Positions 1 through 26,493 of a DNA stretch of 26,493 bases are shown in pieces. Below the pieces are notes generated by a model. The model was not told the DNA's origin. It saw only the letters and a program-made list of their open reading frames with translations, and ran no database searches. How positions within the stretch are numbered: position 1 is the first letter of the stretch; each line of letters begins with the position of its first letter. Source of the stretch: Cochliopodium minus (Eukaryota; Discosea; Himatismenida; Cochliopodiidae); contig JAMYWO010000092.1 in assembly GCA_024220525.1 (NCBI GenBank), forward strand, positions 33,349-59,841. The letters run 5' to 3'. The translations under genes and the position numbers were made by a program.

Positions 1-10
1 TTTTTTTTAC

Positions 11-339
11 CTATCAAGAATGAGCCTATGATTTGTGAGATATAGTTTTGCACTTATCAATGAATCTATTCCTTTCATCTCTGCTTGTAATTTTACTCTT
101 GTATGAATAAATATTTTTAAATATTATTTTATAAAATCCTTTTTATATACAATATATACTTTCTGATTCTATATTATTGGTGATCCAATTTACCTTGCTC
201 TTTTTATGAATACTTCATTCTCTATATTTTTTTTGTTGTCCAAGGAAGTCAATTTCTTCATCAAAGAATTTTTATTGTTGTTATTGTAAATCTCCCATTT
301 CTCCTTAACATTGTTGTATGCTTTCAAAATTGATTTCAT
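11..339 (-). CDS. GRAM/PH-like membrane protein, N-terminal exons (gene continues at right edge)
   Basis: Two exons, 194-339 (starting at the ATG at 339) and 11-97, joined by a GT-AG intron with matching phase (146 nt, then 87 nt). They encode about 77 residues: a charged, Asn/Lys-rich N-terminus, then a stretch with AKLYLTNHRLILDR. That is the pattern of GRAM and related PH-fold domains (G/A-x-LYLTxHRLI), which bind membrane lipids or partner proteins. The second exon ends in AG at a GT donor at positions 10-9 and runs off the window. The next exon, in the right phase and continuing the same fold, lies at 26482-26362, so this is the 5' part of the 24856-26482 gene. The start is about 100 bp downstream of the carboxypeptidase stop, on the same strand. 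The GRAM assignment is from motif shape only; a GLUE or other PH-like fold is possible. Confidence 0.75.
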
Positions 340-441: not shown

Positions 442-1682
442 TCATCTTGATTTTGGATAATAAGAAGGACAAGGGTAAGATTGAATGTTTCCGTTGTCAA
501 TCCATTGAGAAATGGCACTAAACAAAGGGTAAGGAGCATCATGAGTTCCAAAATGACCAGCTTCCTTAACAAGCAACTTTGAAACATTTCCCAATCTTTT
601 AAAATTAAATTAAAATTGAATTAAATTGAATTTAATTAAAAATAAAAATGAAATACGTTTTATAAACTCCGTAAGGTGTTGTAGGTAAAGGGTACTTAGG
701 ATTAAGATTGGGAAGACAATATGAAGAAGATTTGACACTAATCCATCCTTTTTTTACAAAGAGATAAGGAATTTTACAAAAAAAAAAATTTACAATTAAA
801 CAATGAAACGGTTTAAAATTTATACCTGGAACAATGGAAGATATTATTTGTTCTAATCCAACTGGAGTAATAATCCAATCTATTTTTAAACAAAAAAATA
901 AAATATGAAAAAATACGAAAAATTGAGTTTTAAAATTTATCAAAAAAAATAAAAAAAAATTTACTTACCAGCAATTCCGTTGTAGAAAAGAATAGGAACG
1001 TTTTTATTTATTAGATTAACGTATAAATCAATATAATTTTTTGAAACATCCTCGTAAAAACTGGAGACAAATCCTGGTTGAGAACCATAGGTAGGGAATA
1101 CATTGGGGTAAACATTGAGTTGTTTTCTGAATTCAGTAGTATTGACATACTCGGAGTAGAATCCGTAAGAAGCAAAGTAAGACTGAAATTTTTTTAGTGA
1201 ATTTTTTTTTTTTGAAGCAATTTAAAACCAAATAAAAATCAATTTTTTTTTTTACACTAGAAGCAACCGTTCCAAAAGACTAATTTTTTAAAAAGGAAAT
1301 ATTTTTATTAATTATTATTTAATTTAAAATGTTTAAATTATATTTTTGTTATTTTTATTATTTTATGTTTTTAATTTTTATTTGTTTTACTAGAGATTTT
1401 TAAATTTCTTAGTTATAAATTAATATCCTCAAAGGTATAAATTATGGAAGAAGTCATTGTTTACTTTTATTTTTTTATTTTGTTTATTTGTATTTTTTTT
1501 TTTACTTGATACATGGATGTCAATGAAGACATTGAGATGTCAGTAATGAGACTGTAGTACAATTTACTTGCTGCAGTGTAGTTCCCGGAGAGAAAGTAAT
1601 TGTTCAAAATAGAAAGGTTGGATCCCCAATGATTGGCCCAAGCAGTATCCACATAGCCCAAACTCTCACCATAAGATAACTT
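442..1682 (-). CDS. Serine carboxypeptidase (peptidase S10), 3' part only
   Basis: Six exons: 1506-1682, 1256-1279 (24 nt), 969-1182, 826-879, 657-747 and 442-595, all phase-compatible, giving 238 codons ending in TGA. The C-terminal half of an S10 carboxypeptidase is clear. VPILFYNGIADWI holds the catalytic Asp, whose codon is split by an intron (G|AT), and KEAGHFGTHDAP holds the catalytic His. These enzymes act in the lysosome, vacuole or secretory path and remove C-terminal residues from peptides. The family is usually about 450 residues. The N-terminal half, with signal peptide and the GESYGG nucleophile, is absent because the reading frame begins directly at the N at 1683. The closest style is the retinoid-inducible/SCPEP1-like group, judged from spacing. 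The truncation looks like a contig end rather than a pseudogene, since every exon present is intact. Confidence 0.87.
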
Positions 1683-1683: not shown

Positions 1684-4600
1684 TTTTCAACTTTGAATCT
1701 TTTGAAGAGCCGAAATGGAGCAAGTTGTATTTGAGAGAAGGCAAATGAAACCTTAAAAAATAAGAAAATAAAAAACGATAAGAAAATAAAAAAATATAAT
1801 AATAAATAAAATTAATCAATAAATAAAAAATTAAAAATAAAAAATAAAAATAAATGAGAAATTTGTTTTTTAAAAAAATAATAAAAGATAACAAAAAAAA
1901 AAAAAATTGAACAAAAATTTGAGAAATAAATTAAAATAAAAATAAAGATAACAAAACAATAATAAATACAAAAAATTAAATGGAAATAAAAATTTAAAAA
2001 TAAAAATATTTAAATTAACCTCGAGTGGTAAACTTGAAAAGAAACGGTGATTTTGTCGAAGAGATTGATTCTGACATCCCTTTGTTGGTTTTGAAAACGT
2101 AGACGTTTTCTCGTCAAAGTGAGCCTCCGTTGAAGTGACCTCGCTCTTGTAGGATTTGGGTGACAACGAAAAGCATTTTCTGGAAGTTTTAACTTTCCTT
2201 CCTTGTCTTTAATAAACACTTGGCCTAAAAAGAAAGTATTGATAAAAATAAAAATAATGAACAAAAACAACAAATTATTAAAAAGAAAAAAGTTGGAAAA
2301 AATAATCAAAAAAATATTAAAGAAAAAAAAAAATCTAAGAAAAAAAATTTAACAAGAAAAAAAAATAACAAATAAATAAAAAATTAAAAAATTATTTAAT
2401 AAGAAGATAAAAAATCACAAAAAAGATAAAATTAAGAAAAATAAAATTAACAAGAAAAAAATCAACAATAATTAAAATTAATTATTTAATAAGAAAAATT
2501 ATTAACAAAAAAATATACTAACCTTTAAGAAAAATAAAAATTAAAAATAAAAAATAAATGATATTAACCTTTAAGACCATATTTGGAATAAAACATTAAA
2601 ACCGTTATTTCTCATTGAAAACAACAGCCTCTTCTTCTTCCTCGTTCTTAAATTCAAAATATTTGCAGGCGAAAAAATCCTGAGATGTCATCGAAGCAGA
2701 TTTGGCAGTTCTGTGCTTCACATTGATGTTTTTGGAAATGGATGTAACCAATTTGCTGTTTAAATTAATGTTCATTGTTTTCAGAGCTAAAATTAATTTT
2801 ATTTTTTAAAATTAATTTATTATTTTTGTTTATTAATTCATTTTTAATTTATTTTTAAAATCAATTTATTTTAATTTATTATTAAATTTATTTTTTATTT
2901 TATTTTTTCAAGTTATCAATTTTTTATTTTTTATTTTATTTTTTAAATTTATTTTTTAAATTTTTAAATTTTATCATTATTTTTTTTATTTTTAAATTTA
3001 TTTTTTAAATTTTTTTTTTTTTTTTACCACATAACAATTGTCTGTGGACAATAACATCCGCATAACGACGAATGGGAGAAGTAAAGTGAGTGTAATAATG
3101 AGAAGCAAGACCATAATGGTAGTAATCCTTCTCCTCATATGAACCTGTGCTGAAATACTCTGCCTCTGCCATCGCTATAACAAAAATAAACAAAAAATAT
3201 AAAATAAAAATGAAAAATAAAAATGAAAAATAAAAATGAAAAATAAAAATAAAAATAAAAATAAAAATAAAAATAAAAATAAAAAAAAAAATAAACACAA
3301 TAAAATAAAAAAAAAAAATAAAAAATAAAAAAAAATAAAAAACAGATAATAAAAAACAAATAAAAAAAATATTATAACCTTTAGTTGTTTGAATTTTTAC
3401 TATTCTCCCAAAATTAGGATCCCCACTCACAACTGCTTTTTCTATGGACACCTGCAAATCTTTGTTGGTGTCTGCTTTCAACTCAAAGTTTCTTGTGCTC
3501 AAAAGCTTTGCTAAACTTTCCAACGCTTCTCAAAAAAAAATTGAAGAATATAAAATTAAAAAATAATTTAAATAAAAAAAAAAAAATAATGAATAAAATG
3601 AAAAAATAATTAATATAAAATTACTGATAAAATTATCAAATATAAAATTAAAATACAAAAATAAAATAAAATAAATTAAATTAAATAAAATAAAATAAAT
3701 TAAATAAAAACAAAAAATAAATATTAAAAATAAAAATAAAAATTAAAAAAATAATAAAATAATTAATGCAAAAAATAAATATTAAAAATAAAAATAAATT
3801 GAAATAATTTTTTTACAAGCTTTTTTGGGGTTGGGGTGTCTTCTCAGTAAAGCCATTTCAGGGTAATGATGGTAAATAAACTCTGCAACAGATCTTTAAG
3901 AATCAAAAAAAAAGATTGAAAAAAACAAAATAAAGAAACAAAAATAAAGAAACAAACCTGTTTGCTAAAATCATCATTTCACGAACTAAAAAAAAAAATC
4001 AAAAATGAAAAAATAAAAAATAAAAAAATAAAAAAATAGGTATTATTAAAAAAAATAAAAAAATAAAAAAATAAAAAAATAAAAAAATAAAAAATAAAAA
4101 ATAAAATGTTTACCAGTTTCTTTTACTTCTAGTTTTTCTTGGGACTTCATACTAGTAGGAGTTTTGCTTTCGTTATTTTGCAACTCAAATGAAAATTGGT
4201 TGCTCTCCAACTCCAAAGCTCCTTTGCCTTGCCTGTTCGCAAATAGGGCTCTAAAAACAAATGAAAATAAATAAATAAAATTATTTTAAAAAATCTTGTA
4301 ATTAAATTAAGAATAAAATAAAAATAAAATAAAAATAAAAATAAAAATGAAAATAAAAATTAAATTTAATAAAATGAATTATCAAAAAAAATAATAAAAA
4401 AATAAAAAAATGAAAATTAAATTTAATTTTAATAAAAATGAATAAAATGAAATAAAAAAAAAATAAAATAAAATAAAAATGAATAAAATGAAATAAAAAA
4501 ATAATAAAATAAAAAATAAAAGAAACTAATTTAAAATAAATGAAATTACCTTCCAATGTGTACTAGTAAAGTGATTTCTGTTTTGAGCGAAGATAAATCT

Positions 4601-24855: not shown

Positions 24856-26482
24856 TTACAAAATCACAACGAAGCTGGGAGGTAGCAAAAGAGATAACAT
24901 CAAAATGAGGGAAAGATAAGAAAAGAACAAAAGGGTGGTGGAAAAATTAGTGATGAAGAAAATATTAAGCAAATGTTTCCTCAAAAGCAAGAAAGTGCGG
25001 CGACTCTTCTTCCTGGGACACTCCAAAGACTTGTGGTTGGTTGTCTGAAGCCATCTCCTCGAAAAACTGCTTCTGTCAAAAATATTTTTGAGACAAGAAA
25101 AAGTGTAAACGAAAAAAGGGAGAACGATGAGCATAACTATCAAAGAAATGAAGGCGGGGAATATTTGGAGGATAATGTCCGCTCCGATGCAGAAGATGAA
25201 GAAGAGGAGGAGGGTGGTGGGGTGTTTGAGCTGGAAGATCTCGAAGATGAAGGGGAGCAGGTGGTGGTCGGTTTCGAAGAGGATCTCCGCTTCTTCTTCT
25301 ATTATTTCATTGTTGGAGATGGAGTTCTAAAAAAAAAAAAAAAATTAAATCTTAAAAATAAAGGTGAATTGTAACGAGAAAAAATCGAAGCCAAAAAAAA
25401 TGAAAAAAAGAAAAAACAAAAATTACATTCAACAAAATTTTATAAAAAATATTAAAAATAAAAAGAAAAATTAAAAATAAAAAGAAAAATTAAATTTTAA
25501 AAAATTTTACTTTGTTGTAATAAGTAGGGATATTGTTGGAGCTAGAAAACAAAGAAAAAGAAGGAGAACTCTTTCTCAGTTGTTGTTTGGAGATCGAATC
25601 ACGATGAGAGAAGTTGTAGATCTTTTTAGAATCTCCGATCTCATAAACGTTGTCCTTGCTCATGATCCTCTTCATTTTGAGGAGCGGAACATTTTTGTTG
25701 ACGGAGATTTTTTCGTCGGAAATTTCGAAAAGATCATCCTCATCGTTGTTAGTGGAAGTTTCTGTTGAATCTTCTTCAATGAATTCTTCGGAGTACTCTT
25801 CGGAGTCGGAGAAGAAGTTGGTTTTGTCAGAATTGTTTTCAGATGTTTTTTTGAGGTTTTTTATGATATCCTCTGTAACTTTATCCAATGTATCGTTTTG
25901 ATGTGCCTTTTGTGAAGTGAATATGAGTATCAAAAATTTTTTGTGTTTTATATTTTAATTTAAATTTTTTGAAACTTTTTTTTTAATATTAAAATATTTT
26001 TTTAAATTATTTTTTATTTTTTTATTTTAATTTTATTATTTCTTTCAAAAATTTTTATTTTAATATTTATCTTTATCTTTTAAATTATTTACCTCTAATA
26101 CAAGCACACATGTTTTGAACCACCACTCCAGAACCTCTGACCTCTTTCCTCCAAGAAAAGAAACAGAGATGACTTCCCCAGGTTTGAATGTGCCAGCATC
26201 GTTCGGCAAATTCGACTTTATTTCAATGTCCAATATTGTTTTCGTACCCGAAAGAAGTTGTCTTAAATTCTTTTTAAAAAATTTCAAGAATTATAAATTT
26301 AAAAAAAATTTTAATTAAAGTTGATTATAATTTTAATTAAAATATAATTTGATTATATTACAATTTTTGAATCATGATCCAAAGCCTCTTTTCTCTTTTT
26401 GATTGATTCTATTGATTCAAATGGAATTATCACTATATTTTCATGTTTATCCTTTTTAGATATTTTGCCTCTCAACCATCCT
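24856..26482 (-). CDS. GRAM/PH-like domain protein with C-terminal membrane hairpins (main part)
   Basis: Exons 26362-26482, 26093-26269, 25511-25906 and 24856-25326 (TAA) are in phase with each other and with the two exons at 11-339, giving 465 residues in total. Residues about 50-175 form one PH/GRAM-like fold: LYLTNHRLI from the left edge, then IVIIPFESIESIKK and EWWFKTCVLVLE. A 130-residue acidic, Ser-rich linker follows (SDSEEYSEEFIEEDSTE). The C-terminus has two long hydrophobic blocks (about 345-385 and 425-465) separated by a basic loop (CPRKKSRR). Blocks this long look like reticulon-style hairpins or paired helices. The design suggests a membrane-anchored protein whose N-terminal domain binds lipid, perhaps at the ER or a contact site; this is inference. 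It resembles GRAM membrane proteins in parts but not in order. Exon 24856-25326 is richer in C-ending codons than its neighbours. Confidence 0.8.
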
Positions 26483-26493
26483 CTATCAATTCA

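Follow-up and report, generated by a model that had tools for sequence, protein, structure and literature searches.

The two ends of the window, by which we mean the whole stretch of 26,493 bases analyzed here, are probably the two halves of one ordinary gene, and their separation is most likely due to a small contig that was placed on the wrong side of its neighbor, and not to a circular molecule. Taking the gene content as a whole, we hold with good, though not full, confidence that three contigs of this draft assembly, whose true order would be B-A-C, were drawn as C-A-B. As in a contig-ordering error of a draft scaffold, the gene pieces occupy the ends of contigs and are misordered, with their strand kept and with Ns at the joints; here, the ordering error is a cause that we infer from gene content. 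The split at the window ends is useful for assembly curation and, as biology, most likely ordinary and not novel.

Layout of the scaffold

The window corresponds to C92:33349-59841 (genome G000) and is a block within a scaffold of 150,823 bases; the assembly that was searched comprises 44.65 Mb in 598 sequences. The spliced genes in the window indicate a eukaryotic source, and the genes of the block are of an ordinary chromosomal type, including DnaJ, protein kinase, and RNB genes. Runs of N bound the window exactly, with 5,093 N on its left and 2,051 N on its right. In addition, the C92 scaffold contains four single Ns, one of which is window position 1683, and the other three (C92:15091, 64656, and 118723) are found at abrupt edges between A-rich and T-rich simple repeats. 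These three Ns look like placeholders between abutted contigs.

We infer that all four single Ns on C92, explicitly including N1683, mark contig joints. The contigs are named, in scaffold order, X, C, A, B, D, E, F, G, and H (n = 9). With N1683 read as a joint, the window consists of contig A (1-1682) and contig B (1684-26493), and contig C spans C92:15092-28255. The relevance that the preliminary description had assigned to the N at 1683 is supported; this N looks like a contig joint, and no 5′ half of the S10 carboxypeptidase gene of contig A was found in contig B. A tRNA-Asn gene (anticodon GTT) was observed at C92:28171-28245, at the end of contig C and just before the 5,093-N gap. A repeat unit (period 8) common to the right end of contig X and the left end of contig D was given no weight, as 13 of the 56 arrays on C92 carry that unit.

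A probable split GRAM-like gene at the window ends

The exons of the joined gene model are listed in Table 1 together with the neighboring features. At the left edge, exon 2 ends in GATAG with two spare bases (AG), after which GTAAAAAAAA runs down to position 1, and at the right edge the minus-strand gene begins with TGAATTGATAG followed by A GGA TGG. The end of exon 2 at position 11 with its spare AG and GT donor, and the AG acceptor at the right edge, are positioned as had been claimed from the first reading of the sequence. The left- and right-edge exons share a strand and are matched in phase, and the joined frame runs through 465 residues to a TAA stop, with a C-terminal exon that reads as very hydrophobic. 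Taken alone, the agreement in strand (1/2) and phase (1/3) is not convincing.

Table 1. Features at the window ends and around position 1683, in window coordinates
Feature	Coordinates	Strand	Remarks
Exon 1 (ATG start), 5′ part of the split GRAM-like gene	194..339	-	
Exon 2 of the split GRAM-like gene, with LTNHRLILD + AG at its end and the GT donor at 10-9	11..97	-	
Start of the interrupted intron (GTAAAAAAAA)	1..10	-	leftward, C92 continues as 5093 N
End of the interrupted intron (TGAATTGATAG, AG acceptor)	26483..26493	-	rightward, C92 continues as 2051 N
Exon 3 of the joined model (RGWLRGK...VIIPFESIESIKK...)	26362..26482	-	
Exon 4 of the joined model (NLRQLLSGTKTILDIEIK...)	26093..26269	-	
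Exon 5 of the joined model, acidic/Ser-rich linker	25511..25906	-	
Exon 6 of the joined model, with the TAA stop and a hydrophobic C-terminus	24856..25326	-	end computed from the 465-residue frame
3′ half of an S10 serine carboxypeptidase gene, 5 exons	445..1682	-	Pfam PF00450, 49.5 bits, profile 261-420
Single N, contig joint between A and B	1683	.	read as a joint; one of four single Ns on the scaffold
Putative final exon of the RNB-domain gene, where contig B begins	1684..1756	-	piece including the exon: no Pfam match

Comparison with the Pfam GRAM profile gave a score of 15.6 bits for the joined protein (465 aa) and 17.9 bits for its first 177 aa, and the alignment spans the junction. Neither half alone gave a GRAM match in a Pfam scan at E <= 10, and none of the nine controls in which one half was shuffled gave one (0/9), where the HMMER filters, which remove most matches above about 0.1, bear on the negatives for both the halves and the shuffled controls. 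With scores of 15.6-17.9 bits, which lie under the PF02893 cut-off of 23.6 bits, we use the family name tentatively. The likeness to GRAM/PH-like proteins (PF02893) consists of a weak match near the N-terminus of the joined protein, but the score is below the Pfam cut-off and a PDB sequence search with the N-terminal 182 residues returned no matches. When searched against the assembly, the right half matched only itself, and the best non-self match of the left half had an E value of 0.06. Since neither half has a good match elsewhere, a duplicated gene is unlikely.

The intron that spans the window ends would be 10 + 11 = 21 nt long, in contrast to 96, 92, 186, and ~184 nt for the remaining four introns of the joined model, which argues that sequence is missing at the join. 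The junction intron lies beside a poly-A/T tract, and the loss of a few bases there, suspected from the start, is in keeping with these lengths. The proposal in the preliminary description that the two window ends belong to one gene is probably correct, given the shared strand, the fit in phase, the 465 residues to the TAA, and a GRAM match that appears only when the halves are joined. Both halves would then contribute to a single transcript.

The right side of position 1683

The reading frame is open across N1683. To the right of it, contig B begins with an exon that seems to terminate a gene whose RNB domain lies further upstream. The RNB domain itself scored 76.4 bits in a spliced piece derived from the 3005-3523 ORF, and a piece that covers the 1684-1756 exon had no match in Pfam. 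Within the same putative gene, an exon at about 2580-2640 on the minus strand contains in-frame stops. This exon is conserved-looking if two compensating frame slips are allowed, by a resemblance that we presume, and a sequencing error, an odd intron, and a real slip were considered as causes.

The S10 carboxypeptidase halves on contigs A and C

The S10 exons of contig A are separated by GT-AG introns, and their Pfam match starts at residue 47 of the piece. In the family search of the assembly, no S10 place was listed in contig B. A fitting 5′ half of an S10 gene lies outside the window, where contig C begins on its left side; the family search placed it at C92:15085-15840 (minus strand), and the proposed half itself is at C92:15108-15915 (minus strand). 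It comprises three exons that score 199.1 bits over profile positions 10-186, and it breaks off at a GT donor, 16 bases short of the contig end, with one spare base left. Each of the two halves alone passes the PF00450 cut-off of 21.9 bits (199.1 bits for the C half and 49.5 bits for the A half); moreover, their profile ranges do not overlap, they share a strand, and each of them reaches its contig end. When the halves were joined, with X for the unknown codon, the protein scored 249.9 bits in two stretches, which is approximately the sum of 199.1 and 49.5. About two coding bases must be missing at the C-A join, and the PDB alignments shown for the joined protein extend only a few residues beyond the junction before picking up again at around residue 300. 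With a C half that covers profile positions 10-186 and an A half that covers 261-420, the two pieces resemble S10 serine carboxypeptidases (PF00450) as ordinary members of the family, so that the location of the split is the only notable feature of what would be one gene.

A rival 3′ half was found on C240. Joined to the C half, it scores 254.4 bits in one stretch, as compared with 199.1 + 37.4 bits apart, a gain of ~18 bits. However, the C240 exon start needs two bases and contig C leaves one, and in the stretch read the C240 half is not at a contig end and there is no N. A cyclic-nucleotide-binding domain (Pfam PF00027, 44.5 bits) precedes this half. We regard the C-A link as more likely than the C-C240 link, but not proven, and C240 is disfavored as the partner of C only by the splice-phase misfit and by its position away from a contig end. 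Whichever of A and C240 is the partner of C, the S10 gene of contig A is still left without a 5′ half in contig B. A 5′ S10 piece near the start of C296 was rejected as a partner for contig A, because it continues past the break point.

Proposed contig order

The explanation that we favor assumes that the window is a scaffold block made of contigs A and B linked by a placeholder N, and that the assembly broke in or beside introns, with an A/T tract on at least one side of each break. The true place of the small contig A would be on the right side of B, completing the GRAM-like gene there, and probably on the left side of contig C, where it would complete the S10 carboxypeptidase gene; the scaffolder would have misplaced it, so that B-A-C was drawn as C-A-B while every strand stayed as it was. 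The GRAM-like gene implies the order B-A and the S10 gene the order A-C; read along the minus strand, the two genes agree on C, then A, then B. The A-C link is the weakest step of this explanation, weaker than the A-B link. A mate-pair orientation error could turn B-A-C into C-A-B with the strands kept, but this is a guess, and the lengths of the contigs are at odds with a short insert. Against the order B-A-C, only ~370 of the 2,051 N would be left to the right of B once A is placed there, and C does not follow at that place; the drawn gap lengths are likewise unexplained by this order.

All three split genes on C92 have their breakpoints at assembly joints (3/3), and the third of them encodes RCC1 repeats. 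These repeats exit the left end of contig F (C92:75276) and resume in contig G, a contig of 947 bases (117776-118722). The RCC1 model scores 164.4 bits when joined, as compared with 78.1 and 76.3 bits apart, and one repeat spans the junction, where the splice phase fits and an identical 6-base array is present on both contig ends. The two halves do not abut in the RCC1-like-domain profile. The scaffold draws F-5000N-G, that is, G to the right of F, and the reading of these repeats suggests that contig G probably belongs directly to the left of F, not 5 kb to the right of its other end. RCC1 is a repetitive family, and the F-G partner could be mistaken.

Alternative explanations

The scaffold order may instead be right, with the window ends carrying halves of two different GRAM genes, each of them cut by a gap. 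We consider this unlikely. The family is sizeable (31 places listed at E <= 1), both window ends run into a gap, and the S10 half on contig C may pair with C240 instead of A; yet the GRAM halves complement each other without overlap, share a strand, and fit in phase, neither of them has a good paralogue, and the S10 gene of contig A would have no 5′ half in contig B. The preliminary description had further raised the possibility of a circular molecule, which, like a tandem unit of ~26.5 kb, would have been opened inside the GRAM-like gene. The joining of the window ends into one gene in phase is compatible with a circle or tandem unit, as is the open frame across N1683. Such a molecule needs position 1682 to continue into 1684, but 1682 lies within the S10 gene, for which contig B has no listed place and for which a fitting 5′ half is present on contig C, even if the single N could hide a gap of ~1 kb with the missing S10 5′ half. 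Moreover, the block sits between N runs inside the 150.8-kb scaffold and is not an independent sequence, and its DnaJ, protein kinase, and RNB genes are of the ordinary chromosomal type. A circle or tandem unit is therefore, in our view, quite improbable, and the circular molecule is not supported. The other possibility raised at that point, a linear contig opened at an arbitrary point, stands in part: the window is a scaffold block and not a whole contig, but the arrangement that we favor is most nearly matched by a linear piece whose joint at 1683 is false.

Finally, the genes might really be broken or rearranged in the chromosome, either by a recent rearrangement or through a scrambled gene order. 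Three genes on one scaffold seem split with their exons misordered, and no N was present in the stretches read for one S10 case, on C23; however, all of the C92 gene ends concerned are at N joints or gaps, and genes of two other families are colinear in the same assembly. Among genes found at more than one place, 10/10 of the TCP1 type and 15/15 of the myosin type are colinear (25/25), as counted from listings and irrespective of whether they span N joints. A real rearrangement is accordingly very improbable, and we find it barely credible that the pieces are truly disordered in the chromosome and that A/T tracts broke both the DNA and the assembly, so that the coincidence with the joints would follow. 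A rearrangement, if true, would be a striking case, and nothing here favors it.

For the genome record, the misplacement of contigs that we favor means that at least three C92 genes are cut at N joints and that two small contigs are probably misplaced. Gene calls that end at these joints should not be taken as gene losses or fusions. More generally, split genes can indicate contig order without reads.

Other possibly split genes and colinear genes in the assembly

Besides the split gene on C92, the S10 family is represented in the assembly by seven colinear clusters (C58, two on C296, C29, C56, C90, and C316), by the 3′ half on C240, and by a short 3′ piece on C258, the last two being without further parts. 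On C23, a 3′ piece (160417-160972) and a 5′ piece (188190-188734) lie on the plus strand in the wrong order and 27 kb apart, and the stretches of C23 that were read contain no N. The C23 and C240 cases suggest that mis-joins may occur even inside contigs. We do not claim that contig order is reversed throughout the genome, as had been suspected from the C23 S10 pieces, given that C23 lacks an N there and that all of the TCP1 and myosin control genes are colinear. An exchanger gene may also be cut where contig E begins on its left side; a search for its family returned no listed place on C92 and pointed to no clear partner. In C240:7001-9500, the S10 3′ half follows the PF00027 domain with no N between them, which may represent a mis-join within the contig, in a low-complexity intron. 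Two myosin-head pieces, covering profile positions 2-315 and 384-593, lie at C84:93140-94221 and C79:163295-164665, and may be parts of one split gene.
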